DNA from: Gottschalkiaceae bacterium SANA
GTDB taxonomy: Bacteria > Bacillota > Clostridia > Tissierellales > GPF-1
Length of the DNA stretch: 64,000 bases
Direction: 5' to 3'
Assembly (NCBI GenBank): GCA_036323355.1
Contig: AP028876.1
Location: 682,001 to 746,000 of the forward strand
Both the position numbers and the translations under genes were made by a program. Positions 22,962-41,369 of this stretch are shown here, piece by piece (position 1 is the first letter of the stretch; every line of letters begins with the position of its first letter). The notes under the pieces were generated by a model. It did not search any database, was not told the DNA's origin, and worked only from the letters and a program-made list of their open reading frames with translations.

Positions 22962-22976
22962 GATTGGAGGAAAATA

Positions 22977-24260: not shown

Positions 24261-24270
24261 GAGGAACAAA

Positions 24271-25086: not shown

Positions 25087-26021
25087 TGGAACAAAAGTAT
25101 ATTTCTCTTAGGGATTATGTTGGGAAAGCATTGAATGCTGCTAAGGTAGAGTTTCCAAATATTACAGTTATTGATAGTGATCTCGATACATCAACTCGTG
25201 CTCATGAGTTTGCTGTAGAACATCCTGAGTCATTTGTAGAGTTAGGGATTGCGGAAAGTAGTGCTGTGAGCCTTGCCATGGGTATGGCAGGTGAGGGAAT
25301 GATTCCGTTTTATGTTAATTTTGCAATTTTTGTGACTGGAACCTCGTGGACGCAATTGAGGCAAGCGTGTTATGAAAATGCAAATGTGAAGATACTAGGA
25401 ACGCATCCGGGAATGGATGATGGACCTGACGGCGCATCACATCATGCAAATGAAGATCTTGCTATTACGCGTGTTATACCAAATATGACGGTGCTAGTTC
25501 CTAGCAATGAAAAAGAAGTCATGCAAGCAGTGAAACTTGCTTGTGAGATTGATGGTCCTGTATATATTCGCGTAGCCCGAGATCTTGTTCCAGAAAGAGA
25601 GAGTAAGACGGTTTTCGTTTCAGGAGAAGCGGAAATAGTTGAATCTGATGGATATGATGTTGCACTAGTATATGAAGGAACGGCTGCGAAACAAGCACAT
25701 GAGGTCTTTGAGGAGTTATCAAATGCTGGGAAAAAAGTGACTCTCGTTAATATTCGTTCACTTAAGCCGATTGATAAGATTTTGATAAAAGAAATGGCAA
25801 AGAAAACGGAGCGATTTGCGACCATTGAAAACCATACTGTTATTGGTGGACTCGGAGGAGCAATTGCAGAGGAATTGAGTAGCTTTTCAAATTCGGTAAA
25901 ACTGATGCGATTTGGTGTGCAGGATGAATTTACAGAATCAGGAAAAACAGCAGACGTTAAGAAAAAATATGGCTTGGATTCAGATAAAATTGTAGTAAGT
26001 ATTTTGGACGAATTGCAGTAA
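25083..26021 (+). CDS. Transketolase, C-terminal subunit
   Basis: This 312-residue subunit holds the pyrimidine-binding and C-terminal domains of the split transketolase. Conserved segments are DSDLDTSTRAHEFAVEHPES, the catalytic glutamate region FVELGIAESSAVSLAMGMAGEG, and the TPP-pyrimidine site. The transketolase C-terminal domain follows, with VNIRSLKPIDKILIKEMAKKTER and TIENHTVIGGLGGAIAEEL. It acts with the product of the gene at 24271. It ends the PTS operon, apart from the 27-codon ORF and structured segment that follow. Confidence 0.93.
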   Translation: MMEQKYISLRDYVGKALNAAKVEFPNITVIDSDLDTSTRAHEFAVEHPESFVELGIAESSAVSLAMGMAGEGMIPFYVNFAIFVTGTSWTQLRQACYENANVKILGTHPGMDDGPDGASHHANEDLAITRVIPNMTVLVPSNEKEVMQAVKLACEIDGPVYIRVARDLVPERESKTVFVSGEAEIVESDGYDVALVYEGTAAKQAHEVFEELSNAGKKVTLVNIRSLKPIDKILIKEMAKKTERFATIENHTVIGGLGGAIAEELSSFSNSVKLMRFGVQDEFTESGKTADVKKKYGLDSDKIVVSILDELQ

Positions 26022-26158: not shown

Positions 26159-26200
26159 ATAATAAGGTGATTCTCATAACGAGGATTGCCTTATTTTTTT
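26159..26200. terminator. Bidirectional terminator between the PTS operon and the AraC-type gene
   Basis: AATAAGGTGATTCTC and GAGGATTGCCTTATT form a 15-pair stem (with wobbles) around ATAAC. A T-run follows on the plus strand and TTATTATTTT on the minus strand. Confidence 0.85.
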
Positions 26201-27432: not shown

Positions 27433-27570
27433 AAGCACCTCCAAATAATGCTAAAGACGTTTTTGGTTTTCTATTATTTCTATATTTTCATCATTTTCAT
27501 TTTGGTTATCTCTGCTATTATGACATAAAAATGCTAAAACATAAAGCCTCAATGAAAGAAAAGTAATTAA

Positions 27571-27584: not shown

Positions 27585-27612
27585 AAAGATAGATAAAGTC
27601 GAGGAGGATATG

Positions 27613-28977
27613 ATGGGAAAAGATTTATTGTTACGTATACTGCGACATGAGGATGTAGAACGACCGGGCTGGGTTCCTTTTGCAGGGATTCATGCGGGTA
27701 AATTAAAGGGCTATACAGCAAAGGAAGTTTTGACAGATGAAAAGAAATTAGAAGAGGCTTTGCTTGAGGTACACCGGTTGTATCGACCAGATGGCATGCC
27801 AATTGTATTTGATTTGCAAGTGGAAGCAGAAATTATGGGATGTGATTTATTATGGGCAGAAGACAATCCACCTTCCATTGCATCTCATCCATTGAGTAAG
27901 GAAAAGAAGATTCCTTGCGCATGCAAAATGCCCCAAAAAGAGAGTGGAAGGATTCCTATGATTCTTCGCACCATGGAACGAATGAAAACGGCTGTAGGAG
28001 AAGACACTGCCCTTTATGGATTGATCTGCGGACCATTCACATTGGCGTCCCACCTTCGTGGCAGCCAGATTTTTATGGATATGATTTTAGATCCAAAGTA
28101 TGTGAAAGAGTTGGTTGAATATTGCGCGGAAGTTGCAATGAAGATGGCGGAGTATTATATTGAAGCGGGAATGGATGTTATAGCGGTTGTGGATCCGCTG
28201 GTCAGCCAGGTGTCACCGGCGCATTTTACTCAACATTTATCGGAGCCGTTTACAGCGGTATTTGATTATATTCGAGCAAAAGAAGCGTATTCAGCTTTCT
28301 TTGTTTGTGGAAACGCAACGAATCAATTGGATGTTATGTGTAAAACAAATCCAGATTCCATATCGATTGATGAAAATGTCGTGATTCAAGATGCAAAAAA
28401 AGTCATGGACGATTATAATATCACGACAGGCGGCAATATTCCTTTAACAACAACCATGCTATATGGTTCACAATTGGACAATATGAAATATGTCGTTGAT
28501 TTGATCGACTCTATGGATCAGAAAAATTTAATTGTCGCTCCAGGTTGTGACATGCCCTATGATGTGCCAATCGAAAATACCATTGCGGCTGCACAGGCAG
28601 CTCTGCAAACAGAAGAAGTACGTGAGATGGTGGCGGGATATCAAGCCATTGAAGAAGAACCAATTGAAATCGAATTGCCGGTCTATCAAGACCTTAAACA
28701 TGTTTTAATTGAAGTGTTTACGTTGGATTCGGCAACATGTGCAGCATGTACCTATATGATGAACTCGGCCATGCTTGCAAAACCGAAGTTTGGAGATGCA
28801 GTTGAAATTGTAGAGTACAAGTATACGAGACGAGAGGATATTGCAAGGACAAAGAAAATGGGTGTCACCAATTTGCCATCTATTTATATCAATGGAAAGT
28901 TGACATGGTCTTCGATTATTCCGAGTGAAAAAGAGTTGTTTGAAACTATTGAAGGGCTAATCAAAAGTTTGGCATAG
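27613..28977 (+). CDS. UroD-family (MtaA/CmuA-like) methyltransferase fused to a thioredoxin-like domain
   Basis: Residues 1-345 form a uroporphyrinogen-decarboxylase-type barrel of the branch that moves methyl groups to or from corrinoids. It includes MILDPKYVKELVEYC, VDPLVSQVSPAHF and GNATNQLDVM. The zinc site seems partial: C232 and C312 are present, but the His normally two residues before the first Cys is not. Residues 360-454 form a thioredoxin-like domain with C376-A-A-C379 and the cis-Pro segment NLPSIYING. The fused redox domain could keep a thiol or the corrinoid partner reduced. The gene starts an operon with CobW, a MetH-activation-like protein and RACE. The second ATG (27613) has better spacing to AGGAGG. 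Confidence 0.85.
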   Translation: MGKDLLLRILRHEDVERPGWVPFAGIHAGKLKGYTAKEVLTDEKKLEEALLEVHRLYRPDGMPIVFDLQVEAEIMGCDLLWAEDNPPSIASHPLSKEKKIPCACKMPQKESGRIPMILRTMERMKTAVGEDTALYGLICGPFTLASHLRGSQIFMDMILDPKYVKELVEYCAEVAMKMAEYYIEAGMDVIAVVDPLVSQVSPAHFTQHLSEPFTAVFDYIRAKEAYSAFFVCGNATNQLDVMCKTNPDSISIDENVVIQDAKKVMDDYNITTGGNIPLTTTMLYGSQLDNMKYVVDLIDSMDQKNLIVAPGCDMPYDVPIENTIAAAQAALQTEEVREMVAGYQAIEEEPIEIELPVYQDLKHVLIEVFTLDSATCAACTYMMNSAMLAKPKFGDAVEIVEYKYTRREDIARTKKMGVTNLPSIYINGKLTWSSIIPSEKELFETIEGLIKSLA

Positions 28978-28990
28978 TAGGAGAGAAGCC

Positions 28991-29902
28991 ATGAAGATCA
29001 TATTATTGACAGGGTTTTTAGGAGCGGGGAAAACCACGCTCCTTTCTCGCTTGTTAGCAAGTCGTTTGGAAGGCCGCGTTGGAGTGGTTGTGAATGAATT
29101 TGGCGATATTGGCATTGACGGGCGCTTGATACAGGATATGGGGTATCAATTATCGGAATTGAATTCAGGTTCGATTTTTTGTGCTTGTTTAAAATCGCAG
29201 TTTTATACGGCACTGGAGGCAATGGATGATCAGGGAGTGGAGTGGTTGTTTGTTGAAGCCTCTGGACTGGCCGATCCATCAAGCATGCAGGATGCGATTC
29301 AATATCTGAAGGGTAAGAAAGTCAATGCAATGTACCATGGAGCAATTTGTATGGTGGATGCAGTTTATTTTCTTGATCAGATGCAGATTCTACCCGTTCT
29401 TGAAAGGCAAATATACTATAGTGATCTTGTACTATTGAATAAGACTGATTTGCAGACCGAGAGAAAATTAGAATTAGTGGAAGCGGTCTTAAGTAAAATT
29501 CAACCCGACAATCAAATTTTACGGACTCAGTTTTGTGATGTTGATTTGTCACAGATGCTGGCGCTATTATCGCATCGCGGGCAAGAAAGCGTAGCTAATT
29601 TGAATACGTGGGAATCTCGCATGCAGACGGTTGTGATTCATGACAATGGGGAGCATTCAATTCATGCTTGGAAGCTGTTTATTGAATCGATTGCCAAAGA
29701 GACCTATCGTTTGAAGGGATTTATTCGAAGCTCGGAAGGTGTCTATTTGGTCAATGGAGTTGGTCAGACATTACGATGGGAGATTGCTCAGCATCATGAG
29801 GCTACGGAAATTGTTTTGTTCTCGGCGATCGGCATTCGTTTTGTAAGTCGTATCTTGGAAATGGCAGAGAAGCAAGGCTTGAATCTACGTATAGGGACAT
29901 AG
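28991..29902 (+). CDS. CobW/G3E-family GTPase
   Basis: This 303-residue P-loop GTPase belongs to the G3E family (COG0523), whose members load metals or act as chaperones for metal and corrinoid enzymes. The Walker A motif is GFLGAGKTT (residues 8-16). The switch and Walker B regions are VVNEFGDIGIDG and LFVEASGLADPS, and the guanine motif is NKTD near residue 155. The family metal motif C-x-C-C is here CACL (C64, C66), so one Cys is lost. A CobW C-terminal domain follows. It lies 13 bases behind the UroD-thioredoxin gene and likely helps mature or reactivate the corrinoid system of the operon. Confidence 0.9.
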   Translation: MKIILLTGFLGAGKTTLLSRLLASRLEGRVGVVVNEFGDIGIDGRLIQDMGYQLSELNSGSIFCACLKSQFYTALEAMDDQGVEWLFVEASGLADPSSMQDAIQYLKGKKVNAMYHGAICMVDAVYFLDQMQILPVLERQIYYSDLVLLNKTDLQTERKLELVEAVLSKIQPDNQILRTQFCDVDLSQMLALLSHRGQESVANLNTWESRMQTVVIHDNGEHSIHAWKLFIESIAKETYRLKGFIRSSEGVYLVNGVGQTLRWEIAQHHEATEIVLFSAIGIRFVSRILEMAEKQGLNLRIGT

Positions 29903-29921
29903 GGGGTGGAAGGATTTGTTA

Positions 29922-30545
29922 TTGCGTATCAATACGGAGATAAAACTGGACCAAAAGAAAATTTATCGGAGAATGAAGGTTTCGGAGGCCATGACCGACG
30001 TAATGGATCAATACTATCAAACCCTTCTTGTGGAGATTCAGGAAGCGGTTGAAGTGGAATCAGTTTGTTTAATTGAAGAAGATTCGTTGACTTTTGATAT
30101 TGTTGAATTGGATTCCTGTAAAAAAAAGGCTTACTGTTATGTGAATATCGGCAGCAAAGTCGTTGAGATTTTAAAAGGCTACTTTGCAGGCAAGCAATAT
30201 ATGCTGGGTTATTTGCTGAATGAAATGCTTGGAGAGACCATTATGCAAGTCGCAAGTCAGCTTCGCCTGGAAATGATGAAATCTTTGTCGGAGGGGGAAA
30301 ACTTAACGGTTCGGTATTCACCTGGAGAGAAGGGCTTCCCTTTAGAGAAACAAGAAATGATTTATGAAAAATTACAGGGTAAGACGAAACTATCGGGTGA
30401 GTTGAATGATTCTTATATGATTGTGCCGGATAAAGCAATGATGTTTGTATATGGCATTGGTCGTCATCTTCCTTATAATGAGGTGGACCACGAATGCACA
30501 CGTTGTACAGGAAATCGGCTTTGTCCCTATCGGACGGGATATTGA
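29922..30545 (+). CDS. MetH activation-domain-like protein
   Basis: The roughly 207-residue protein resembles the activation (SAM-binding) domain of cobalamin-dependent methionine synthase, found as a stand-alone protein in corrinoid methyltransferase operons. It has the segment VVEILKGYFAGKQYMLGYLLNEMLGETIMQVA, then RYSPGEKGFPLEKQEMIYEKL as in the R-x-S-P-G-Y/E region of MetH, and a C-terminal CTRCTGNRLCPYR cysteine cluster that may hold a metal. It probably takes part in reductive reactivation of the corrinoid. A TTG start at 29922 is preferred for its spacing from GGAAGGA; a TTG at 29916 is also in frame. The RACE gene follows by nine bases. Confidence 0.82.
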   Translation: MRINTEIKLDQKKIYRRMKVSEAMTDVMDQYYQTLLVEIQEAVEVESVCLIEEDSLTFDIVELDSCKKKAYCYVNIGSKVVEILKGYFAGKQYMLGYLLNEMLGETIMQVASQLRLEMMKSLSEGENLTVRYSPGEKGFPLEKQEMIYEKLQGKTKLSGELNDSYMIVPDKAMMFVYGIGRHLPYNEVDHECTRCTGNRLCPYRTGY

Positions 30546-30554
30546 GGAGAGGCA

Positions 30555-32078
30555 ATGGTTGAGATTATTCAAGGAAACGGAAAAAGAGAAATTTCTTGTG
30601 ACAAGAAGCAGAGCATTCTTGAATTTCTGCGAGAATCGGGCTACGAGGTATCGGCAGTTTGTTCGGGAAATCAGACCTGTGGGAAATGCAAGGTGCAAAT
30701 TCTAGAAGAGTGTCCAATAGCCAATGAACAGGAAGGCCGATTTTTTTCATCTGAGGAAATTGAGGCTGGACTTCGCTTGTCTTGCGCCCACCCAATTCGT
30801 TCTGGCATGAAGATTAGGCTAGCAGACAAGGTGACTTATCAAAGTCTATCCACCTTTGACCTTGCCGATTCCATTAAGATGAAGAGTGAAAAGGGTAAGG
30901 GCTATGGCGTGGCCATTGATTTGGGCACAACGACTGTTGTGATTGGGCTTGTATCGCGCGAGAAGAAGGCGATTGTTCAAGTGGCAAGTTTTTTAAACCC
31001 GCAAAGTAGTTATGGAGCAGATGTGATTTCACGAATTGAGGCATCTAAAAGAGATGGCGGTGAGGTCTTGCAGGCCTTAATTTTGGAGGAAATCAAAAAG
31101 AAAATTAAAGCCTTATGCGAGTTGGAAAAAATTGCTGGTTTAGACATCACAGATTTTGTGATTTCGGGGAATACAACCATGCTCTACTTGCTGCAAGGCT
31201 ATGATCCGCAAGAATTGGCTCTTGCTCCCTTTGTAGTAAGTCATTCGGAATATGTTGAATTTGAGGCAAAGATGTTCTTTGCGGAGAACTGGCCGGGAAC
31301 GGTTCATCTATTTCCATGTATTTCAGCTTATGTTGGTGGCGATATTGTCTCGGGTCTCTATGCATATGGAAAAGAGCTTGAAGAATGTCAGCCGGTTTGT
31401 CTGTTGGATCTTGGAACCAACGGGGAAATCCTACTGATGGATCAAAATAAAGTGGTCTGTGCAGCTACGGCAGCAGGTCCCGCTTTTGAGGGTGCTGGAA
31501 TACAGTCGGGAATTGGTGGAATTTCTGGAGCGATTGACAAGGTACAATTTGATGGTGATCGCATTGCATATTCAACAATCGATGAGGCGGATCCAATTGG
31601 GATTTGTGGGTCCGGGATTATCGATGTTGTTTCGGAAGGAATTCGGACCGGACGGATTGATAAAACTGGCAGAATGGCGAGTGGTGATTTGATTTTGTGC
31701 CAAGAAGGAAATCAAATTGTCTTCACGCAAAAAGACATTCGTGAGGTTCAGCTTGCAAAGGCGGCGATTGCAGCGGGAATCAAGGTCCTGGCATCACATA
31801 TGGAAATCTCGATCGGTCAGATTAAAAGTCTTCATCTTGCAGGGGGATTTGGTCAATATTTAAATCTACAGCATGCGGGGACGATCGGACTCATTCCTAA
31901 TGAGTTGGTAGGTCGTAGCAAAGCGATCGGGAATGCTTCCTTCGCAGGAGCCTATAAAGCACTTTTTGATTTGAATCTGAAAGAGAATCTAGAGGAAATA
32001 CAAAAAAAATGTGCCTATATCGAGTTATCAAGCGAAAAAACCTTCAACGGAATTTACATTCAAGAAATGGGATTTTAA
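30555..32078 (+). CDS. RACE: ferredoxin-ASKHA reductive activator of corrinoid enzymes
   Basis: The 507-residue protein begins with a 2Fe-2S ferredoxin domain (C36, C42, C45 and C77 in VCSGNQTCGKCKV and LSCAHP). From about residue 115 it has an ASKHA (DUF4445-type) ATPase domain, with AIDLGTTTVVIGLV, LDLGTNGEILL, GPAFEGAGIQSGIGG and LAGGFGQYLN. Proteins of this build use ATP to drive reduction of cob(II)alamin to cob(I)alamin in corrinoid proteins. In this window the natural partner is the corrinoid protein at 40692, about 9 kb downstream. It is the last gene of the first methyltransferase operon, followed by a strong terminator. Confidence 0.93.
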   Translation: MVEIIQGNGKREISCDKKQSILEFLRESGYEVSAVCSGNQTCGKCKVQILEECPIANEQEGRFFSSEEIEAGLRLSCAHPIRSGMKIRLADKVTYQSLSTFDLADSIKMKSEKGKGYGVAIDLGTTTVVIGLVSREKKAIVQVASFLNPQSSYGADVISRIEASKRDGGEVLQALILEEIKKKIKALCELEKIAGLDITDFVISGNTTMLYLLQGYDPQELALAPFVVSHSEYVEFEAKMFFAENWPGTVHLFPCISAYVGGDIVSGLYAYGKELEECQPVCLLDLGTNGEILLMDQNKVVCAATAAGPAFEGAGIQSGIGGISGAIDKVQFDGDRIAYSTIDEADPIGICGSGIIDVVSEGIRTGRIDKTGRMASGDLILCQEGNQIVFTQKDIREVQLAKAAIAAGIKVLASHMEISIGQIKSLHLAGGFGQYLNLQHAGTIGLIPNELVGRSKAIGNASFAGAYKALFDLNLKENLEEIQKKCAYIELSSEKTFNGIYIQEMGF

Positions 32079-32114
32079 AAAAGTGAATTAATAAAGTGAA
32101 GTTGATAGAAAATT

Positions 32115-32157
32115 GAAAAAAAGTGATGATATAATAAAATATATCGTCACTTTTTTT
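32115..32157 (+). terminator. Terminator after the RACE gene
   Basis: AAGTGATGATATA and TATATCGTCACTT form a 13-pair stem around ATAAAA, with A-runs before and T-runs after. Confidence 0.92.
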
Positions 32158-32240
32158 CATGTTTGAAATAAATGGGCGAATATAAATCGATAAAGTAGAA
32201 ATAAGCCCTGAATTACAGGGAAAAAGTCTAAATAATGTGA

Positions 32241-32257
32241 TTGGCATGAAAATTGCA
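32241..32257 (+). promoter_or_regulatory. Sigma-54 (-24/-12) promoter upstream of the LevR-type activator
   Basis: TTGGCATGAAAATTGCA has GG at -24 and GC at -12 with the required ten-base spacing and matches the sigma-54 consensus closely. The start codon is 24 bases downstream. The gene encodes a sigma-54 activator, so positive autoregulation together with the PTS genes is likely. Confidence 0.88.
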
Positions 32258-32280
32258 ATAATAAGGAGTGGGAGAAGAAG

Positions 32281-35190
32281 ATGGAACTAGTTGAGATGAT
32301 TTTGCAGGAAATTCAAAAAGAAGACCGGAAGGAGCCCTATCAAGACCAACAATTGGCGGAACTTCTTGCTTGTGATCGCACCAGTATTACAAAAGCGAGA
32401 AAGCGACATGGAATTGAAGAGTCTCGAACTCGATTTAAGCAGTATGTTGCTGAGGAAATCGCAGGTATTTTGCAAGAAGACAGTGATCTTCCCAATCGAG
32501 AATTAATCCGGGAGCTTGGCAAAAAAGGATTTTCAATTTCCCCCTATATGATGAAACAGATTCGAGTCAGCATGACAGAAGCAAAACCGAAAAATTCAGA
32601 GCGAGGGAACAAGAAACAAAAGCTTGTCAATATAGCGGAATTAGAAAGTGTTTATTCGGATATTGTAGGAAATCTTGGCAGTTTTAAAACCGTGATTCAA
32701 TCCCTTGAAGCAGCCGTGATGTATCCGCCAAAGGGTCTAAATACCTTGATCACTGGCGAAAGCGGTGTGGGCAAGACTATGCTTGCAAGAAAAATGTATG
32801 AGTTTGGGCGGATGAAGGGAAGGTTTCCTTTAAATAGTGAATTTGTGCATTTCAATTGTGCGGATTATGCAGAAAACTCACAACTCATCTTATCCATGTT
32901 GTTTGGTGTGAAAAAGGGAGCCTATACGGGTGCTTCTGATGATCGTATTGGATTGGTGGAAAAGGCGCGAAATAGCATTTTGTTTTTAGATGAAGTACAC
33001 AGAATGCCAGCAGAAGGGCAAGAGATTCTTTTTAAAATTATTGACGAAGGTGTTTATCGACGATTGGGTGAGAGTGACCGTGAGCGAGAAATTAATGTGT
33101 TCATCGTTGCGGCAACAACGGAGGAACCAACAGAATGTTTGCTGGATACCTTTTTGAGGCGATTCCCCATGATGGTTCATATTCCACCATTGAAGCAGAG
33201 GCCAGCATCGGAACGATTGGAGTTGATCGAACGATATCTGCTTGTACAAGCCAAACAACTGCAAAAGGATATTTGGCTTGACCATGACAGCGCTTTGGCT
33301 TTCTTGTTGCATATGCCCAAGGGTAATGTTGGAAAATTGTTCAATGAAATTCAAGTATGTATCGCAAAGGCCTATTTGGAATCAATGATTGAAAACAAAA
33401 AAGAAATCCGAATTACATTTGATTTGGTGGATCATCAGATTCAAAGAAATTTGATGGATAAGAATCAATTCTACAAAGAGGCAAATCAAATTGTACATTA
33501 TCAAGGACTTACGATTCCAAAAGATGGTCGTCTGGAAGCTTCGCTATTTAATCTTAAAGACGAAGAAACCATATATAAATTAACGGAACACCTTTTTCAA
33601 GAAAGCAAGGAATCGGAACGATCAATTGAAGAAACACAACAGTATATTGGAGAGAAAATTGAAGGATTTATTCAGAAAAAGGTAAACAAGACTTATCCCA
33701 TTGACAAGCAAAATATTATCAAAATCATTGGAACACAATTGGCTTCAACCGTCGAGCGTGCATTGGAGTTGGCTGCACCAATTATCCAAAAATACGATAT
33801 GCAATTATTTTATTCTTTGGCGGTGCATATCAATGAAACGATTGAACGTGTTAAGGCGGGGAAAGCCATTGAAAATCCAAAGCTCCGCACGATTGAAAGC
33901 AAGCATAAGGATGTTTTTGAGATTGCATTACGGATGACTGAGTATATTACCTCAAGAACTGGGGTGGAATTTCCAAAAGATGAAGCGGCCTTTGTGGCTA
34001 TGTATTTGTTGGGTTATATCGAGAAGGAAAAAGATACAGGGAGAATTGGAATCTTGGTTCTTAATCATGGGGAGTATGGTCTTCCAATGATTCGTTTGGC
34101 AGAAACATTAATGGGCCAGGCGAACATTGCCAATGTCGCGATGAAGATGGAGGATCAACCGAGCGAAGTGTTACCTCTTGCGATGGAACGAGTTCGGAAA
34201 ATGGATGAAGGGAAAGGCGTTTTACTTTTTGTTGATATGGGTTCGCTGAATGCATTTGGATCATTGATTGAAGAGAGCACAGGGATTAAGGTGAAAACCG
34301 TCGCAAGATTTGATGTCTTGATGTTGATGGAAGCGGTGCGCATGTGTCGAATGGCAGAAATAAGCTTGAGTGATATTCATAAGCACTTGATAGCACCAGA
34401 GCGCAGCCATCTGAGGCGGGATGATAAGCGGATAAAACCAGCCATGAAAAAACCATTGATTATAACGACCTGCATGACGGGACAAGGTGCCAGCGTTTAT
34501 TTGAAGGAACTGTTGGATCGTTCACTTGATGATCTGCCAATCGAGATCAAAGAAATAGGCGTCTTCTCGGAGGTGAGTTTAGATGATCAAATCCAGCAAC
34601 TATCACAAACCTATACCATTTTATGTGTGGTTGGAACAATCAATCCCAAGAAAGAATGGATTCAATTTATCAGTATAGATCAGGTGGTGTCTGGAAAAGC
34701 GGTTGAAACAATTCGCTATTTGTATCGTAAGCAGTATGGTGAAAAGGAAAAGTATCCGATTGATCGTCACTTGATTTTCAATCGACAAGCAGTTTCGACA
34801 AAAGAAGAATGTATTGAATTCTTATGTCGACAGATGGTGGACCAGGGAGTTGTAACAAAACGATATTTACAAGATGTTTATGAGCGAGAAGAAATGGGTT
34901 TGACCTGTTTGTTGGACGCGCAGGAAAAAGGAATTGCGATTATTCATACGGTATCGTCTAAAGAAGTTATTCGAGACGGGATGAGCATTCTGAGCACAAG
35001 ACAACCTATTTTTTGGGATGCGATTGATATTGATGTTGTTGTGGTGATGGCATTGACGGATTCGGAAAGTCGTTTACCCTATTTAGTGAATCGCACAATA
35101 TTTCAAAACGAAGACCGAATGAGACGGATTCGGGCATCACAATCAAAGGGTGAAATGCTTACTCTAATCCAAGAGGCATTGCAAACATAA
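32281..35190 (+). CDS. LevR-type sigma-54-dependent PTS regulator
   Basis: This 969-residue activator has an N-terminal helical DNA-binding region (about 1-100). An AAA+ domain (about 125-400) follows, with Walker A GESGVGKT (159-166), the sigma-54 contact loop GAYTGA (213-218) and Walker B ILFLDEVHRM. A PRD (about 500-590) and an EIIA-Man-like domain (about 595-715, His in VLNHGEYG) come next. An EIIB-like segment (about 735-820, TCMTGQGASVY) and a C-terminal EIIA type 2-like domain (about 830-965, His in GIAIIHT) complete it. Phosphorylation by PTS proteins would tune its activity. It precedes the aldolase and the galactitol-type PTS genes, which it most likely controls from the sigma-54 promoter at 32241. 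Confidence 0.92.
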   Translation: MELVEMILQEIQKEDRKEPYQDQQLAELLACDRTSITKARKRHGIEESRTRFKQYVAEEIAGILQEDSDLPNRELIRELGKKGFSISPYMMKQIRVSMTEAKPKNSERGNKKQKLVNIAELESVYSDIVGNLGSFKTVIQSLEAAVMYPPKGLNTLITGESGVGKTMLARKMYEFGRMKGRFPLNSEFVHFNCADYAENSQLILSMLFGVKKGAYTGASDDRIGLVEKARNSILFLDEVHRMPAEGQEILFKIIDEGVYRRLGESDREREINVFIVAATTEEPTECLLDTFLRRFPMMVHIPPLKQRPASERLELIERYLLVQAKQLQKDIWLDHDSALAFLLHMPKGNVGKLFNEIQVCIAKAYLESMIENKKEIRITFDLVDHQIQRNLMDKNQFYKEANQIVHYQGLTIPKDGRLEASLFNLKDEETIYKLTEHLFQESKESERSIEETQQYIGEKIEGFIQKKVNKTYPIDKQNIIKIIGTQLASTVERALELAAPIIQKYDMQLFYSLAVHINETIERVKAGKAIENPKLRTIESKHKDVFEIALRMTEYITSRTGVEFPKDEAAFVAMYLLGYIEKEKDTGRIGILVLNHGEYGLPMIRLAETLMGQANIANVAMKMEDQPSEVLPLAMERVRKMDEGKGVLLFVDMGSLNAFGSLIEESTGIKVKTVARFDVLMLMEAVRMCRMAEISLSDIHKHLIAPERSHLRRDDKRIKPAMKKPLIITTCMTGQGASVYLKELLDRSLDDLPIEIKEIGVFSEVSLDDQIQQLSQTYTILCVVGTINPKKEWIQFISIDQVVSGKAVETIRYLYRKQYGEKEKYPIDRHLIFNRQAVSTKEECIEFLCRQMVDQGVVTKRYLQDVYEREEMGLTCLLDAQEKGIAIIHTVSSKEVIRDGMSILSTRQPIFWDAIDIDVVVVMALTDSESRLPYLVNRTIFQNEDRMRRIRASQSKGEMLTLIQEALQT

Positions 35191-35214
35191 AAGCTAGCAG
35201 CAAAAGGAGGAAAC

Positions 35215-35865
35215 ATGTTACAAAATTTACGTGAAAAGGTATTGGACATTGGGCTTAAAATGAAGGCCTATGGTTTGATTGCGCAAGCAGGGGGGACTGT
35301 CTGTGCGAGGGATCCAGAAACCGGATTGATTGCGATTTCCGCAAGCGGCATGTCTTATGAAGAGATGACCTGGCAGGATGTCTTAATCATTGATGAAGAG
35401 AAAAATCTTCTTGCTGGCGAGCGAAAAATATCGGTAGCAACCGATATGTTTTTGACTATTTTTAAAAACCGGCCCGATGTGAATGCGCTGATTCATACGC
35501 ATTCCCGTTATGCAACGGCATTTGCGGCGGTGAAAAAGCCAATCCCTGTGATTACAACGACTCAGGGAAATATTGTCGGGGGCCAAGTGCCTGTGGTGCA
35601 AACCGTTCATGTTGGTCCCTATGATCAAGCCTTCTACAACGAAATTGCTGAAACACTGGGAAATGGGTGGGCATGCAATTTAGCTGCGCACGGCCCGATC
35701 TGCGCAGGCACCGATTTGGAAATGGCTTTGGATGTATCAGTAACCATAGAAGTAACCGCGCACACAGCGTGGATTGCAAAGTTTTTGGGCGAACCGTATC
35801 AACTTACAAATGAAGAGATTCAGGGTTCGTTTCAATTTTGTCAGGCCGCAGTTGGCCAAAAATGA
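35215..35865 (+). CDS. Class II aldolase/adducin family protein
   Basis: The 216-residue zinc enzyme belongs to the fuculose-phosphate aldolase / ribulose-phosphate epimerase family. It has the N-terminal GLIAQAGGTVCARDPETG segment where the phosphate and glycine loops lie, and the central zinc pair in NALIHTHSRYATAF. The third zinc His is in the helix TIEVTAHTAWIAKFLG. Such enzymes cleave a phosphorylated sugar to dihydroxyacetone phosphate and an aldehyde, or invert a hydroxyl. It lies between the LevR-type gene and the PTS genes and should act on the PTS product. AGGAGG precedes the start. Aldolase and epimerase roles cannot be separated from sequence alone. Confidence 0.88.
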   Translation: MLQNLREKVLDIGLKMKAYGLIAQAGGTVCARDPETGLIAISASGMSYEEMTWQDVLIIDEEKNLLAGERKISVATDMFLTIFKNRPDVNALIHTHSRYATAFAAVKKPIPVITTTQGNIVGGQVPVVQTVHVGPYDQAFYNEIAETLGNGWACNLAAHGPICAGTDLEMALDVSVTIEVTAHTAWIAKFLGEPYQLTNEEIQGSFQFCQAAVGQK

Positions 35866-35879
35866 AGGGAGGTGACAAA

Positions 35880-36191
35880 GTGGCAGAAAGAAAATTGATT
35901 TTATGTGTTTGCGGAGCAGGAATTAACACGTCAATGAATGCAAAAATGACGATTATGGAACATCTACGTGATGCGGGGATGGATGATGTTGAGGTTAAGC
36001 ATGCAATGATTGGTGATATTACACCTTATCGGGGCAGGGAAAACATGGTTGTGGTATGGATGACACAGATTGATGCAAAGTTCGAGGCACCAGGCGTGCA
36101 AGGCATGGCATATTTAATTGGAACCAAGAAGAAAAAGCGTGCCTTATCTGAAGAAATTATGCAGAAAATGAAAGAAATTTGCAAGGAATAA
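35880..36191 (+). CDS. PTS EIIB component, galactitol type
   Basis: The 103-residue protein is a GatB-like EIIB. Its phosphocysteine is probably C11 in the P-loop CVCGAGINTS. A GTG start at 35880 is chosen because GGGAGGTG lies seven bases before it and the family motif then begins at the usual place; it is 14 bases behind the aldolase stop. It passes phosphate from EIIA (37610) to the substrate on EIIC (36319). A hairpin follows the stop. Confidence 0.9.
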   Translation: MAERKLILCVCGAGINTSMNAKMTIMEHLRDAGMDDVEVKHAMIGDITPYRGRENMVVVWMTQIDAKFEAPGVQGMAYLIGTKKKKRALSEEIMQKMKEICKE

Positions 36192-36194
36192 AAA

Positions 36195-36233
36195 TAGCAT
36201 CACAAGAGGCGTCGAAACAGCTTGTGATGCTAC
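36195..36233 (+). terminator. Intercistronic hairpin between EIIB and EIIC
   Basis: TAGCATCACAAG and CTTGTGATGCTA form a 12-pair stem. There is no T-run, so it is more likely an mRNA stabiliser or processing site than a full terminator. It lies inside the PTS gene run. Confidence 0.6.
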
Positions 36234-36318
36234 TTAATCAAATCGCAAAGAGACTTTACGAATGACTTAATAATTCTAGCAATTATTGAGCAATAAATCA
36301 AATAAATGGAGGACTATT

Positions 36319-37545
36319 ATGGTTGCATCTATATTAGGAAGTTTGGGGGGACCCGTACTTGTCGCTATTGTTATGTTTTTACTCGGTCTGATTTTTCAAG
36401 CTGGTTTTTCCAAAAGTATACGCGGGGGATTATATGCAGGGATTGGCTTAGCAGGTCTATTTGTTGTTGTCAATGCGGTAACAGCAAGTTTGACACCAGC
36501 GATTCAAGCTTTTGCAGCACGTTTTGACACAAGCTTGACCTTAACTGATGTTGGTTGGGGATCTGCGGGTATTGCCTTTTCATGGCCAGGATTAGCATTT
36601 GTTATTATCGGTGTTATTGTTGTTAATATTATTTTGGTCATGCTTGGTGTTGTAAAGACCATGTGGACAGATATTTGGTCTTACTGGCATGGTCAAGTTG
36701 TTGGTGGTTTTGTATGGTATACAACAGGAAGCGTAACGCTAGGTGTGGCAGCAGCTATTTTGTATTTGACTTTGGGTAGTTTTATTGCCGACTACACGGC
36801 AAAACGATATCAAGAATTCAATGGGATGCCAGGAATTTCGGTTCCATGTGCAGTCAGTTTAGCGGGAATTTTTGCACAACCAGTTAACGCATTGATTGAA
36901 AAGATTCCTGGAATCCGAGATATTAATGGGTCGCCAGAAAACATTCGTAAGCGTATGGGAATCTTTGGTGAACTAGGTGTTATGGGTGTTGTGATTGGTG
37001 CTTTTATTGGTTTGCTTGCAGGCTATGGCTATGCGGCTGTTTTAAACTTGGGTGTTCAAGTTGGTGTGATGATGGTCTTCTTGCCAAAGACGGTTTCCGT
37101 TCTTTGTGAGGGTGTTATTCCAATCGCCAACTCGGCTACAGAATTTATTCAAGAAAAATTTGAGGACAAGGAAGTTTATGTAGCAGTTGACTGTGCGGCT
37201 CTATTGGGCCATCCATCTGTTATGGCATCTGCCGTTTTACTTTACCCAATCGCTGTTATTATGGGCGTTTTACTACCAGGCAATGGCATCATTCCAATTG
37301 CTAGTTTGGCGATTATTCCTTACTGGTGTGGAGCGATTGCACCTTATTGTAAAGGCAATGTATTCCGTATTGTATTGACAACCATGCTTTGGATGGTTCC
37401 AATTTTCTATATCGCAACAGCAATGGGCGATGTGCATACTGGAACTATGGCTTCATTAGGACTTGGCGAAGCGGCAAGCTCTTCTTTTGACATGGGTGGC
37501 GATATTTTAGGATTCTTGGTTCATAAGATTTTTAGCATCTTTTAG
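36319..37545 (+). CDS. PTS EIIC component, galactitol type
   Basis: The 408-residue membrane protein has about 10 or more helices of the GatC family. The N-terminus contains GGPVLVAIVMFLLGLIFQAGF, then VTASLTPAIQAFAARFDTSLTLTDVGWGSAGIAF, a conserved GatC segment. Further on come WHGQVVGGFVWYTTGS, IPGIRDINGSPENIRKRMGIFGELGVMG and the C-terminal PIASLAIIPYWCGAIAPYCKGN. It transports and presents a sugar alcohol or ketose for phosphorylation. The actual substrate is unknown and may be a modified (for example methylated) polyol, given the nearby methyltransferase genes. GGAGG lies before the ATG at 36319. Confidence 0.92.
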   Translation: MVASILGSLGGPVLVAIVMFLLGLIFQAGFSKSIRGGLYAGIGLAGLFVVVNAVTASLTPAIQAFAARFDTSLTLTDVGWGSAGIAFSWPGLAFVIIGVIVVNIILVMLGVVKTMWTDIWSYWHGQVVGGFVWYTTGSVTLGVAAAILYLTLGSFIADYTAKRYQEFNGMPGISVPCAVSLAGIFAQPVNALIEKIPGIRDINGSPENIRKRMGIFGELGVMGVVIGAFIGLLAGYGYAAVLNLGVQVGVMMVFLPKTVSVLCEGVIPIANSATEFIQEKFEDKEVYVAVDCAALLGHPSVMASAVLLYPIAVIMGVLLPGNGIIPIASLAIIPYWCGAIAPYCKGNVFRIVLTTMLWMVPIFYIATAMGDVHTGTMASLGLGEAASSSFDMGGDILGFLVHKIFSIF

Positions 37546-37554
37546 GAGTTGTTG

Positions 37555-37587
37555 AACCTAGCCCGATGGTATCGGGCTAGGTTTTAC
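37555..37587 (+). terminator. Hairpin between EIIC and EIIA, possible attenuator
   Basis: AACCTAGCCCGAT and ATCGGGCTAGGTT form a perfect 13-pair stem around GGT, followed by TTTAC. It could terminate part of the transcripts and lower expression of the downstream genes. Confidence 0.65.
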
Positions 37588-37609
37588 AAGACGGGAGAAA
37601 GGAGAAAGT

Positions 37610-38068
37610 ATGTTTATTCTAGAAAATCAGAATGTGCTGCTCGGGGTTGATGCAAAAAATCAACGAGAAGCAATTCAGATCCTTGGAAACCAAATGGTGG
37701 AAAATGGATTTATTAAAGAGGCGTATATCGACGCTGTTATTGAGCGGGAAATGCAATATCCAACAGGACTTCCCACAGAAGGCGTAAAGGTAGCCATACC
37801 GCATGCGAATGCGAATCACGTGATTCAATCCACAATTGGTGTCATGACGCTTTCGAAACCCGTGACTTTTTGTAGTATGGGGGATGCAACAGAAGAGTTG
37901 GATGTTGAACTAATTTTTCTTTTAGCAAACACAGATCAGTCGGATCAGCCAGAATCCTTGCAGCGATTGATGCAATGCTTTTCTGAAGAGGAAGCACTGT
38001 TGAAAATGAAAGCGGCAACAACAGAAGATGAGATTTTAACGGTATTGCGGGATTACATGAAAGAGTAG
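37610..38068 (+). CDS. PTS EIIA component, fructose/galactitol type (EIIA-2)
   Basis: The 152-residue protein is a PTS EIIA type 2 domain. The phosphohistidine is H65 in GVKVAIPHANANHV. The C-terminal part has LIFLLANTDQSDQPESLQRLMQCF as in GatA proteins. It takes phosphate from HPr and gives it to the GatB-like EIIB. The UroD-type methyltransferase gene starts eight bases later, linking PTS and methyltransferase genes in one transcript. Confidence 0.92.
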   Translation: MFILENQNVLLGVDAKNQREAIQILGNQMVENGFIKEAYIDAVIEREMQYPTGLPTEGVKVAIPHANANHVIQSTIGVMTLSKPVTFCSMGDATEELDVELIFLLANTDQSDQPESLQRLMQCFSEEEALLKMKAATTEDEILTVLRDYMKE

Positions 38069-38076
38069 GTGGAGAA

Positions 38077-39231
38077 ATGAAAAAAGTAATGACGCCCAGA
38101 GAACGGGTTGCAGCAACCTTGAATTTTGAAGAGCCGGATCGCGTTCCAATCTGTATTGGGTCGAGTGGAGCCAGCGTGAATGATGCCGTCTATTATCAAT
38201 TGAAAGAGCATTTTCAAATTGAAGGAGACGTTGAACCTTTTCGCAGCGGTCATGGAGATAATATTTATGATCCCAGGGTATTTGATAAATTAGGTGGAGA
38301 TTTTCGGCATGTATTTTTAAAATCAAATCAAGAATACAAGGCAGCAACAACAGAAGACGGTGGAAGAATCAACGAATGGGGTGTAAAAGTTATTCGAGTC
38401 GGCAAATTCAATGAATGGATGAGCCATCCATTGCAAGGTGCCACGCTTGAGGATTTAGACAATTATGCATGGCCCAAGCCCTATGAAGGCAATCGGGACC
38501 GTGATTTAAAAGCAGATATAGACTATTGGTATAAAGAAACAGATTTTGCGATTTCAACACGATCACCTTCTCGTGGTTTTTGGGACTTGGGTATTCAATT
38601 GCGGGGATTTGATCAGTTCGCTATGGACATGATTTTAAATAAACCATTTATTCATAAGATGATGGAAAAGATCTTAGAGGTTTTGATTGCCTACTATGAT
38701 GTCTTATTGAGTACAGTAGGACCCTATGTACAGATTGTTGAGACACAAGATGACTTGGCTCATCAGAATGCGCCATTTATGTCTCCGGATGCCTATAAAG
38801 AGTTTATGATGCCATATCGGAAAAAGTTAAATGCATTTATTAAGAGCAAAGCACCACAGGCAAAGATTTATCAGCATTGCTGCGGTTCTGTAAGAAAATT
38901 GATTCCCTATATGATTGAAGCGGGAATTGAAGTACTTAATCCCATTCAACCCTTGGCAAAAGAGATGGATACGGGAAAATTGAAGCGTGATTTTGGCAAA
39001 GACATTGTGTTCTTTGGTGGAATTGATTTGCAGGAACGATTGGCAGGCCCACCAGAAGTGGTAGAACAAGAAGTGAAGGAACGGATTCGCGATCTTGCCC
39101 CTGGCGGTGGATATATTATGTCACCGGCAAATGTTGTTCAACCGGATGTGCCGATTGAAAATTTGATTTTATTATGTGAATTGGCAAGAGAATATGGCCA
39201 ATATCCTTTGGATCTTGAAAAGCTAAAATAG
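38077..39231 (+). CDS. UroD-family corrinoid methyltransferase (probable substrate demethylase)
   Basis: The 384-residue protein is a UroD-fold methyltransferase. Motifs include RVAATLNFEEPDRVPICIG at the N-terminus, the conserved TQDDLAHQNAPFMSPDAYKEF region, and QHCCGSVRKLIPYMIEAGIEVLNP, where H267 and C269 fit the H-x-C zinc site. The later Cys found in MtaA-type enzymes is not seen; the matching segment reads MSPANVVQPDVP. UroD-type methyltransferases remove methyl groups from substrates such as methoxy compounds and pass them to a corrinoid protein. Here one lies 1.4 kb downstream at 40692. It follows EIIA by eight bases, so it may act on a methylated PTS product. Confidence 0.87.
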   Translation: MKKVMTPRERVAATLNFEEPDRVPICIGSSGASVNDAVYYQLKEHFQIEGDVEPFRSGHGDNIYDPRVFDKLGGDFRHVFLKSNQEYKAATTEDGGRINEWGVKVIRVGKFNEWMSHPLQGATLEDLDNYAWPKPYEGNRDRDLKADIDYWYKETDFAISTRSPSRGFWDLGIQLRGFDQFAMDMILNKPFIHKMMEKILEVLIAYYDVLLSTVGPYVQIVETQDDLAHQNAPFMSPDAYKEFMMPYRKKLNAFIKSKAPQAKIYQHCCGSVRKLIPYMIEAGIEVLNPIQPLAKEMDTGKLKRDFGKDIVFFGGIDLQERLAGPPEVVEQEVKERIRDLAPGGGYIMSPANVVQPDVPIENLILLCELAREYGQYPLDLEKLK

Positions 39232-39243
39232 AGGAGAACTCCG

Positions 39244-39540
39244 ATGAAGAAAGTATTGTTGATTGGAGGGCTGTGCGGGATGACCATGTTGCGAGCAGCC
39301 TCGATGATTGAAGACGAGTGTCGGGATCGAGATATTTCGATTTCAGTAAAAATTCAAAATGTATGGGAGTCTCCAACGGTAGAGATGCAGGGGCTTGATG
39401 TGGTGATTCAAATGATGCCTTTGTATGAGACGGCTCCCTGTATGTTGGTGAGCGGAAAGCCATTTATCTCGCATTTTAAAGAGAAACAATTATTGTCTTC
39501 GATCATTGACTATCTGGAAAGAGGGGGCGAAAGATCGTGA
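39244..39540 (+). CDS. Small EIIB-like protein of unknown function
   Basis: I do not recognise this 98-residue protein with certainty. It starts KKVLLIGGLCGMTMLRAASMIEDE, which looks like a PTS EIIB P-loop with the Cys (C11) in the same place as in the GatB-like protein at 35880, but the glycine and T-S of a normal CGxGxxTS loop are changed. The middle DVVIQMMPLYETAPCMLVSGKPFIS also fits an EIIB-type alternating fold. It may be a repurposed EIIB that carries something other than phosphate, perhaps sulfur, since the cysteine desulfurase gene overlaps it by four bases (GTGA). Confidence 0.6.
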   Translation: MKKVLLIGGLCGMTMLRAASMIEDECRDRDISISVKIQNVWESPTVEMQGLDVVIQMMPLYETAPCMLVSGKPFISHFKEKQLLSSIIDYLERGGERS

Positions 39541-40679
39541 TTTATGCGGACTATGCGGCAACAACACCCTTAGATTCTCGAGTATTCGAGGTCATGAAAC
39601 CCTATTTTCAGGAACAATACTTTAATCCATCGGCGCTTTATCCTCAGGCGCAAAAAATACGAAAAGAGATTGAACAAGCACGTTCACAAGTCGCTGAACT
39701 CTTGGATGCAGAGTCTGAAGAGATTATTTTTACCAGTGGCGGTACCGAGGCGGACAATATGGCAATCAAGGGGATTGCATTTGCTTTGCGGGAAAAGGGA
39801 AAGCATTTGATTACGTCTCAGATTGAGCATCATGCGGTTTTAGCGAGTTTTCAATTTCTTGAAAGGCAAGGATTCGAGGTCACCTATTTGCCCGTTGATG
39901 ATCATTTTCGAGTGTCTGTTGAAGCCTTTGAAAGTGCGATTCGTCCGGATACGATCCTGGCTTCCATCATGATGGCAAACAATGAGACTGGAGCCATTCA
40001 GCCTATACAAGAATTGGCAGCAATTGCGAGGTCGGAAGGTGTTTATTTTCATACGGATGCCGTGCAAGCTATAACGACATGCAAGATATCGGTTAGGGAG
40101 CTGGGTGTTGATGCATTGAGTATTTCGGGACATAAGATCTATGGACCGAAGGGGTCCGGTGCCTTGTACCTAAAAACGGATACGCCTATTGTTTCTTGGA
40201 TTACCGGAGGTGACCAGGAAGGTGGATACCGCGGTGGAACGGAATCGGTGGCAAATTTAATAGGACTTGGAGAAGCGGCGAGAATTTTACAAAGTGAACG
40301 AGCGGATCGAGAAAACCATGGCAAGGTTTTACGCAAAAGATTGATGGATGAATTGAAGCGTCAAAATCTTGATTTTCAGGTTCACCAACATCCGACATAT
40401 CAATTATCACATATTGCCAATATTGGATTTCGTGAGGTTGAAAGCGAGAGTTTGTTGATGCATTTGATGTTAAGAGGAATTGTGGCTTCTTTGGGGGCGG
40501 CTTGCAATTCTTCATCTGTTGAACCATCCTATGTTTTAGAGGCTGGCAAGGTGGATCGTGCTTATATTAAGGGAAGCGTACGGTTTTCATTCGGTCAGGA
40601 CACGTCTGTGGAGGATGTAGATCGACTTGCGAGTGAAGTGAAACAAATACTTGATTTGATAAGAAAAGTGAATTTTTAG
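39537..40679 (+). CDS. NifS-like cysteine desulfurase
   Basis: The 380-residue PLP enzyme moves sulfur from L-cysteine to a catalytic Cys persulfide, releasing alanine. The N-terminus IYADYAATTPLDSRV, the FTSGGTEADNMAIKG segment, and the PLP lysine K200 in SISGHKIYGPKG are family hallmarks. The catalytic loop is SLGAACNSSSVEPS with C323. It resembles NifS/IscS-type enzymes and selenocysteine-lyase-like relatives. It starts with GTG and overlaps the EIIB-like gene by four bases; the corrinoid protein gene follows by 12 bases. A desulfurase between a UroD methyltransferase and its corrinoid protein is unusual and hints at sulfur chemistry or Fe-S supply for this pathway. Confidence 0.92.
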   Translation: MIYADYAATTPLDSRVFEVMKPYFQEQYFNPSALYPQAQKIRKEIEQARSQVAELLDAESEEIIFTSGGTEADNMAIKGIAFALREKGKHLITSQIEHHAVLASFQFLERQGFEVTYLPVDDHFRVSVEAFESAIRPDTILASIMMANNETGAIQPIQELAAIARSEGVYFHTDAVQAITTCKISVRELGVDALSISGHKIYGPKGSGALYLKTDTPIVSWITGGDQEGGYRGGTESVANLIGLGEAARILQSERADRENHGKVLRKRLMDELKRQNLDFQVHQHPTYQLSHIANIGFREVESESLLMHLMLRGIVASLGAACNSSSVEPSYVLEAGKVDRAYIKGSVRFSFGQDTSVEDVDRLASEVKQILDLIRKVNF

Positions 40680-40691
40680 CAGGAGGAAATT

Positions 40692-41318
40692 ATGATAAAT
40701 AAAGTGATCGAAGTATTGTCGATGAATAATCCGGAATTGGTGAAATCGACTGTGGAAGAAGCCTTGGAAGCCGGTTTTACAGCCAATCAAATCATTAATG
40801 AGGGCTTGGTTGTTGGTATGAATGGAATCGGGAAACGGTTTCGAGAAGGAGAAATCTTTGTTCCCGAGGTATTGGTATCGGCAATGGGCATGCAAATGGC
40901 TTTGGAGCGATTAAAACCCTTATTGAAAGAGGGAGAGAATCAGGCGAAAGGTAAGGTCATTTTCGCTACTGTTCAAGGGGACATTCATGATATCGGAAAG
41001 AATCTGTGCTGTATTATGCTAGAAGGCGCGGGATATGATGTGATTGATTTAGGCACAGATGTCAGCAAGGAAGTGATTGCAAATGCGATTCAAGAGCATA
41101 ACCCTGATGTTGTTGGCTTGTCAGCTCTTTTGACAACTACGATGACTGAGATGCCAGTGATCGAATCTTATCTGCAAGAAGTTGGGGTGAGAGAGAATAT
41201 CAAATTGGTTTATGGGGGAGCACCGCTTACAAGCAAGTGGGCGGAAGAACATGGCGCAGATGGCTATAGCGAAGATGCGGCAGAGTGTGTTGATCTAGTC
41301 GCAAAATTCGTTTCATAA
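40692..41318 (+). CDS. Corrinoid (cobalamin-binding) methyl carrier protein
   Basis: The 208-residue protein has the two-domain build of methyltransferase corrinoid proteins (MtaC/MtbC/MttC type). A four-helix cap domain (about 1-85) includes EGLVVGMNGIGKRFREGEIFVPEVL. The B12-binding Rossmann domain (about 88-208) has the lower-ligand motif D97-x-H99-x-x-G102 in GDIHDIGKN, and then GLSALLTTTMTEM and YGGAPLTSKWAEEHGADGYSEDA. It would accept a methyl group from the UroD-type enzyme and pass it on, perhaps to tetrahydrofolate. Reactivation would need the RACE protein at 30555. AGGAGG precedes the start and a terminator follows. No second-step THF methyltransferase gene is in the window. Confidence 0.95.
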   Translation: MINKVIEVLSMNNPELVKSTVEEALEAGFTANQIINEGLVVGMNGIGKRFREGEIFVPEVLVSAMGMQMALERLKPLLKEGENQAKGKVIFATVQGDIHDIGKNLCCIMLEGAGYDVIDLGTDVSKEVIANAIQEHNPDVVGLSALLTTTMTEMPVIESYLQEVGVRENIKLVYGGAPLTSKWAEEHGADGYSEDAAECVDLVAKFVS

Positions 41319-41340
41319 GAAAATGAAAAATAAATGAAAG

Positions 41341-41369
41341 AGACGATGTGAAAGCATCGTTTTTTTTAT
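41341..41369 (+). terminator. Terminator after the corrinoid protein gene
   Basis: ACGATG and CATCGT pair around TGAAAG and are followed by a long T-run. Confidence 0.85.

Follow-up and report, generated by a model that had tools for sequence, protein, structure and literature searches.

Corrinoid methyl-transfer genes within a phosphotransferase operon of Gottschalkiaceae bacterium SANA: a candidate O-demethylation of methylated sugar phosphates

The stretch of DNA considered here, positions 682001 to 746000 of the 3.49-Mb single-contig genome of Gottschalkiaceae bacterium SANA (G000), carries at 27610 to 41318 a run of 13 open frames, all on the + strand, in which corrinoid methyl-transfer genes are mixed with an enzyme II set of the GAT type of the phosphotransferase system (PTS). 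The whole stretch of 64,000 nucleotides is referred to as the window, and coordinates are counted within it. On the sequence evidence, there is about an even chance that these genes form a sugar-responsive PTS operon that would O-demethylate an imported methylated sugar phosphate in a corrinoid-dependent reaction. A broader proposal, which we hold more tentatively and a little short of an even chance, is that a clade of UroD-superfamily proteins with a His-Cys-Asn site comprises corrinoid-dependent demethylases of methylated sugars or sugar phosphates in the PTS, ABC and pentose-phosphate operons of anaerobes, and that the methyl group here would be passed by a UroD-thioredoxin fusion to an acceptor other than folate. 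Protein families were assigned by Pfam and NCBIfam profile searches; the 13 one-direction frames and most of the families given in a preliminary description of this DNA, which had noted the same mixture of methyl-transfer and PTS genes, were confirmed.

The proposed substrate:corrinoid methyltransferase (MT1) is UroDB (38077..39231, PF01208). The model of this protein, with a predicted local distance difference test score (pLDDT) of 91.4, has MtaA (4ay7) as its best fold in the PDB, the nearest proteins being MtaA and uroporphyrinogen decarboxylase. Alignment with MtaA places His267 and Cys269 on the His-x-Cys motif and Asn352 at the position of the second MtaA cysteine. According to the available part of PMC10418091, the zinc site is His-Cys-Cys in S-methyltransferases of this superfamily, and O-methyltransferases have one or both cysteines replaced. 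By that rule, O-demethylation is favored over S-demethylation because the third metal ligand is Asn and not Cys. The substrate had been proposed beforehand to be a methyl-ether or methylthio sugar; the O-methyl form fits the Asn ligand, and the methylthio form is less likely, the third cysteine typical of S-type sites being absent.

All 29 sequences of alignment A1, which comprises UroDB of the window, UroDB of the sister species G002 and 27 others from further loci, have His267. At position 269, 25 of them have Cys and 4 have Asp; position 352 is occupied by His in 21 and by Asn in 8. The eight Asn rows (window, G002, L041, L042, L043, L045, L046 and L047) form a supported clade (98/91) in a tree of 60 rows; the tree covers UroD frames of 301 to 439 amino acids only, and its bootstrap values had yet to converge completely. 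Asn likewise occupies the third position, along with His-x-Asp, in three distant UroD rows that are not part of A1 (L044_12501, L044_18695 and L079).

All eight members of the clade sit in carbohydrate loci, in five kinds of arrangement. The members from the window and G002 accompany a GAT-type PTS. In L046, UroDB belongs to an operon that encodes a mannose-type PTS, LevR, HPr and EI, and L047 is alike; both have TGGCATGAAACTTGCA between LevR and EIIB, a sigma-54 site nearly the same as that of the window. A ribose-type ABC transporter and an FGGY kinase accompany UroDB in L045, and in L041 it is found with an ABC sugar transporter, a phosphofructokinase and a fucose/sulfoquinovose-isomerase-like protein, an arrangement that L042 resembles with the isomerase-like gene present twice. 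Around UroDB of L043 are a fructose-6-phosphate aldolase, a split transketolase, RpiB and a DeoC/LacD aldolase; a CorrC-type corrinoid protein follows UroDB directly, between the transketolase and RpiB, which makes this a second operon combining sugar, UroD and corrinoid genes. As an observation apart, the protein encoded at L041:8053-9381 is related to the sulfoquinovose isomerase SftI (316 bits, cut-off 700), and its gene adjoins that of the nearest relative of UroDB found beyond the genus.

The carbohydrate context was also tallied over a larger set of loci. A sugar transporter, kinase or isomerase was found within 4 open reading frames (ORFs) in 22 of 48 UroDB-type loci versus 0 of 20 controls (p 1e-4). 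The 48 exclude the window and G002, and eight of them supplied the seeds for the markers; without these eight the count is 14 of 40 (p 0.002). The controls were round positions chosen by hand, not randomly, on homologue-bearing contigs, one per genome; a TRAP-type protein appeared in one of them and an ABC ATPase in another. The tally may be low, given that genes under longer antisense frames were missed, as happened with the corrinoid gene of L043; the count of CorrC was redone by tblastn. PTS genes lie near UroDB in 4 of the 50 UroDB-type loci compared (window, G002, L046 and L047). Homologues without PTS genes, whose regular occurrence the preliminary description had named as evidence against its link between UroD and PTS, are thus the majority; because many of them lie in other sugar loci, the link shifts from PTS to carbohydrate.

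As far as spacing and signals indicate, the 13 genes probably belong to two transcription units, a cassette from UroDTrx to RACE and a unit from LevR to CorrC. Intergenic gaps are of 8 to 14 bp, or there is an overlap of 4 bp, with exceptions between RACE and LevR (202 bp), LevR and the class II aldolase-fold gene (24 bp), GatB and GatC (127 bp), and GatC and GatA (64 bp). UroDTrx, CobW, a gene for a protein of 209 amino acids and RACE are spaced by 9 to 13 bp; the 202-bp gap follows, and then the nine genes from LevR to CorrC. The gap contains an intrinsic terminator (32114..32159, + strand; 20-bp stem, U-run, −23.9 kcal/mol), a hairpin that is absent from the listing of a consensus terminator scan, and a predicted sigma-54 (−24/−12) promoter, TGGCATGAAAATTGCA (32242..32257, + strand), which ends 23 bases 5' of the LevR start codon and has one mismatch to the consensus TGGCACNNNNNTTGCW. 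Sites with at most one mismatch number 4 on both strands of the 64 kb, this one among them. The site is identical in G002, where the 64 upstream bases compared have partly diverged. It is the one-mismatch match, its location and its conservation that argue for a sigma-54 promoter; a loose scan allowing up to 3 mismatches was uninformative (380 matches versus 275 expected), and a second one-mismatch site inside the UroDB gene of L046 shows that such sites also arise without a promoter.

The first gene of the second unit encodes a LevR-type sigma-54 activator (32281..35190) with sigma-54 interaction, PRD and EIIA domains (Sigma54_activat, PRD, EIIA-man and EIIA_2). Most simply, the PTS genes, UroDB, the gene for a 98-amino-acid protein, NifS and CorrC would be read as one LevR-driven transcript. 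Since this unit starts at the conserved sigma-54 site and ends at an intrinsic terminator after CorrC (41335..41369, + strand; −16.0 kcal/mol, U-run), UroDB and CorrC would lie within the PTS regulon. The claim that the two halves of the locus act together therefore stands in part: UroDB and CorrC are placed inside the LevR/sigma-54 PTS unit, in a clade found in carbohydrate operons, and the activation cassette is probably separate and general. Separate transcripts, the outcome that had been set against joint action, are in the same way probable for the cassette and not for UroDB and CorrC.

EIIA, EIIB and EIIC of the GAT kind are all present by Pfam, and the "complete PTS" described previously holds for enzyme II. 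GatB (35880..36191, PF02302) has the motif CGAGINTS and a likely GTG start at 35880, GatC (36319..37545) matches EIIC-GAT (PF03611, E 3e-59) with a likely ATG start at 36319, and GatA (37610..38068) matches EIIA_2 (PF00359, E 1.5e-32). With the galactitol EIIC model TIGR00827, GatC scores 319 bits, below the cut-off of 542, which assigns it to the GAT superfamily and does not imply a galactitol carrier.

The order from LevR to CorrC is the same in G002, with proteins 84 to 97% identical; the proteins of the upstream cassette are conserved there too (78 to 94% identity). In G002 one contig ends with the cassette and another begins with the PTS half; the gene order is as in the window, and the two parts are probably contiguous. 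This conservation of order and proteins indicates that the gene mixture is not due to chance. Searches of G001, of the same genus, gave no UroDB (E <= 1e-20), no UroDTrx (E <= 1e-10), no RACE and no stand-alone corrinoid protein. The scan of named genomes gave one true relative, the sister species, and two weak UroDs, and plasmid records gave only two UroD relatives (28 to 34% identity).

UroDB, CorrC, RACE and UroDTrx very probably constitute one corrinoid methyl-transfer system. Should it be a demethylase, its methyl donor is more likely than not the carbohydrate that this PTS imports. CorrC (40692..41318; PF02310 and PF02607) is a methyl-carrying corrinoid protein with a base-off His motif, DIHDIG, at residue 97. 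Searches of G000 found two UroD proteins and one RACE, all three within this locus. The corrinoid-protein model gave three matches, namely CorrC, an 811-amino-acid frame (MetH) and a weak match in a 526-amino-acid frame, and CorrC is the sole stand-alone corrinoid protein found. Its partners would be one activase and two UroD-type enzymes, a system that appears nearly closed as regards UroD-type enzymes. Across the phylum, UroDB homologues (E <= 1e-40) occur in 39 of 398 genomes, G000 included; RACE is present in all 39 versus 218 of 398 overall (Fisher p 2e-11, relatedness uncorrected).

The cassette begins with UroDTrx (27610..28977), an MtaA-like UroD domain (URO-D, 178 bits) joined to a thioredoxin-like domain (Thioredoxin_3), for which the role of methyl-corrinoid:acceptor methyltransferase (MT2) is proposed. 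MtaA (4ay7) is the nearest solved structure to UroDTrx as it is to UroDB. In contrast with MtaA and MtbA of methanogens, UroDTrx lacks the His ligand and has the added thioredoxin domain. The protein occurs in 10 of 249 genomes of the order (E <= 1e-60), all 10 of which have RACE, versus 69 of 249 overall. FFVCG, PGCDMPY and CAACTYM are invariant in the ten proteins: Phe stands in place of the MtaA His (FFVCG); both cysteines and the CAAC in the thioredoxin domain are conserved. Next come a CobW-family GTPase of the metal chaperone type (28991..29902; PF02492, E 5e-38), the 209-amino-acid protein (29916..30545) and RACE, the ATP-dependent corrinoid reductive activase (30555..32078; PF14574, E 1e-65, with RACo_C_ter, Raco_middle and Fer2).

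This cassette is probably transcribed on its own as a general methyl-handling module, not specific to sugars. A PocR-domain regulator of the AraC family (26191..27444, − strand; Pfam PocR and HTH_18) is divergent from it, and such a regulator also stands beside UroDTrx in L095, L096, L097, L106, L107 and L109. The cassette of G090 includes the divergent PocR regulator and an additional gene; it faces genes for a BCCT-type transporter (judged by eye), an MTTB-family methyltransferase and a corrinoid protein. In G059 (L110), the neighbors of UroDTrx are a corrinoid protein and a gene that looks MttB-like by eye and contains an in-frame TAG; in methanogens, MtbA would occupy the position of UroDTrx. 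These settings are consistent with UroDTrx probably relaying methyl groups from the corrinoid proteins of several substrates. The in-frame TAG of the MttB-like gene (by eye; L110:2418-3899) possibly encodes pyrrolysine.

The 209-amino-acid protein had been labeled "MetH-activation-like". It has no significant Pfam match, and its likeness to the MetH activation domain is weak; it is nevertheless related to the split MetH-activation protein of the same genome (29% over 106 amino acids), and relatives of 209 to 212 amino acids occur in the same cassette of other genomes. At L098:4937-8908 of G000, a MetH-like protein (799 amino acids) apparently lacks an activation domain, which seems to be encoded separately (222 amino acids, PF02965 25.9 bits) between the MetH-like protein and an MTHFR-like protein (by eye).

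For folate-type MT2 (PF00809), the sole match in G000 is the 811-amino-acid frame (MetH), and G001 and G002 likewise have one long frame each. Replacement of the folate MT2 by UroDTrx was considered and dropped: 9 of the 10 UroDTrx genomes are without a stand-alone MT2, but so are 52 of the 59 RACE genomes of the order that lack UroDTrx. With frames sorted by length and score, the two groups do not differ (Fisher p 1.0), giving no evidence of replacement.

Taken together, these observations suggest a scheme of which we infer the direction, the substrate and the acceptor. LevR would sense PTS phosphorylation and switch on the sigma-54 promoter at 32242, and a methylated sugar or polyol would be imported and phosphorylated by GatC, GatB and GatA. 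The O-methyl group would pass to the Co(I) of CorrC through UroDB, and Co(I) would be kept reduced by RACE, perhaps with the 209-amino-acid protein as partner. UroDTrx would then carry the methyl group from CorrC to an acceptor. The likeness of UroDTrx to MtaA, and the lack of any folate-type MT2 match outside the MetH frame, make a thiol the likeliest acceptor; NifS could supply sulfide. Once demethylated, the sugar phosphate would enter central metabolism, possibly by way of a reaction that the class II aldolase-fold protein performs.

Several findings weigh against this reading of the operon. The class II aldolase-fold protein (35215..35865, PF00596), when aligned to fuculose-phosphate aldolases, keeps the metal ligands His94, His96 and His159, and in both species Ala75 replaces the catalytic Glu. 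That Glu is catalytic in class II aldolases, at the position which we take to be E73 of FucA. The aldolase of the preliminary description is therefore real in fold and metal site, and cleavage of the sugar, or an epimerization, is doubtful for a protein with Ala75. The 98-amino-acid protein (39244..39540) and the NifS-type cysteine desulfurase (39537..40679, aminotransferase V) are without a clear role. The former is 88% identical in G002 and has no Pfam family and no PDB sequence match; its earlier label as EIIB-like is not supported, since hhalign matched it to neither EIIB of the window and the low-confidence model (pLDDT 68.6) has best folds that are not EIIBs. The latter scores 445 bits with TIGR03402 (NifS, cut-off 531) and 310 bits with NF002806 (IscS subfamily, above its cut-off of 304), and could provide sulfide for a methyl acceptor or take part in Fe-S assembly.

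Other points on the same side concern the comparisons. The preliminary description had looked to a conserved neighborhood of the UroD gene at 38077; the full set is indeed present in G002, and this arrangement is known from 2 genomes only, the window and G002. The closure of the system covers UroD-type enzymes only, and the association with RACE may partly reflect kinship of anaerobes. Among the 48 loci, 26 have no sugar markers within 4 ORFs (L043, with its transketolase and RpiB, is counted here), several in the tally are near-copies (L046/L047 and L056/L057) or share a genome, and 5 stand beside TRAP or LarA genes. A corrinoid protein together with a folate-type MT2 lies within 2.5 kb in 5 loci (L044, L054, L058, L133 and L137), and a corrinoid protein, with or without such an MT2, within 2.5 kb in just 12 of 50, window and G002 included (tblastn; controls 0 of 20).

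UroD relatives outside the clade have TRAP transporters, LarA or corrinoid sets that include a folate MT2 as neighbors. They speak for an alternative in which only the regulon is shared: UroDB would demethylate another compound, for instance an aglycone or acid that bears a methoxyl group and is released together with the sugar from a plant glycoside, and the PTS would take up the sugar part. Known O-demethylases act on aromatic methyl ethers, according to the available portion of PMC13222342. We regard this alternative as unlikely, although it is the best of those considered, as the nine genes of the unit include no glycosidase or second transporter, and a common aglycone does not explain the clade members in four other kinds of sugar locus.

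Still less likely is that the locus is a relative of the type 1 mlp clusters, engaged in S- or Se-methyl salvage, for instance from a methylthio sugar, with NifS as a sulfur or selenium enzyme. Two UroDs, a corrinoid protein and RACE without a folate methyltransferase recall those clusters as presented in the accessible text of PMC10418091, and NifS lies within the operon. In that text, however, Mlps are His-Cys-Cys except for several Mlps1, UroDB being His-Cys-Asn and UroDTrx Phe-Cys-Cys, and its Results and Discussion do not name a PTS.

The low count of neighboring corrinoid genes (38 of 50 UroDB-type loci have none within 2.5 kb) would suit a UroDB that is not a corrinoid methyltransferase and performs other chemistry on a sugar phosphate, CorrC being present for another reason. 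This is improbable: UroDB and UroDTrx are the only UroD-type partners of the only stand-alone CorrC found, RACE accompanies UroDB homologues in 39 of 39 genomes, and L043 is a second sugar operon with an adjoining CorrC. Methylation of the sugar as a methyl sink, for which it may be said that the ClMlp2 assay ran from methylcobalamin to selenide and that both directions are thus possible in vitro (PMC10418091, available part), is very improbable for genes within an apparently substrate-induced PTS uptake operon.

The proposed O-demethylation of a sugar phosphate has relatives among known systems. PTS operons controlled by LevR and sigma-54 are a known type, with which the window shares the LevR domains, the −24/−12 site and the full enzyme II set, and from which it differs by the methyl-transfer genes inside. 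The acetogen O-demethylases (Odm, Vdm and Mtv) and the chloromethane system CdmBCA share a UroD-superfamily MT1, a corrinoid protein and an activase; as far as the available part of PMC13222342 goes, they act on aromatic methyl ethers or haloalkanes and pass the methyl group to tetrahydrofolate through MT2. In the window, by comparison, the MT1 lies in a PTS operon and the only PF00809 match of the genome is in MetH. The type 1 mlp clusters share several MtaA-like UroDs, a corrinoid protein and RACE, with no folate MT2, and differ in that Mlps are nearly always His-Cys-Cys, acting on S or Se, in contrast with His-Cys-Asn and Phe-Cys-Cys here (PMC10418091, in its accessible portion).

Methyl ethers on plant, algal and bacterial sugars block catabolism. 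An example, in the part of PMC10033563 available, is 6-O-methyl-D-galactose, which in marine bacteria is demethylated by a P450 monooxygenase in an oxygen-dependent reaction that releases formaldehyde. Both routes would remove a sugar methyl ether before catabolism, that of the window being oxygen-free and corrinoid-dependent. A literature search, with most subscription papers outside its reach, returned only the oxygen-dependent route of sugar demethylation and no corrinoid sugar demethylase, and within the same scope "uroporphyrinogen decarboxylase", "phosphotransferase system" and "corrinoid protein" never came together in one paper. The kind of system is known; its sugar-operon setting, ligand set and methyl sink are undescribed in the searchable literature. 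If the proposal is true, a corrinoid route would explain the use of methylated sugars by anaerobes, as an oxygen-free counterpart of P450 sugar demethylation, and one UroD clade would gain a concrete substrate class, with a compact operon that has one likely inducer. The UroD-thioredoxin cassette further raises the question of where corrinoid-borne methyl groups go in bacteria without a folate methyltransferase.

The gatB-gatC spacer (36192..36318, + strand) is unusually conserved: it contains the most conserved 120-bp segment of the operon relative to G002 (97.5%; the median of 913 such segments is 86.7%). The spacer also has a hairpin with a perfect 12-bp stem at about 36195 to 36232, and of 200 shuffled versions of the region 36185 to 36330, 199 fold less well than the native sequence (z −2.6). 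Rfam gave nothing at gathering scores for this spacer, only seven weak matches, all far below theirs. Just upstream of the 13 genes, a separate PTS unit at 20443 to 26021 comprises a PRD-type regulator and a small EIIB (both by eye), an ascorbate-type EIIC (NF009553, 574 bits) and a split transketolase, and this unit is conserved beside the cassette in G002. Two T-box leaders are also present in the window, at 2157 to 2350 and 9534 to 9746.

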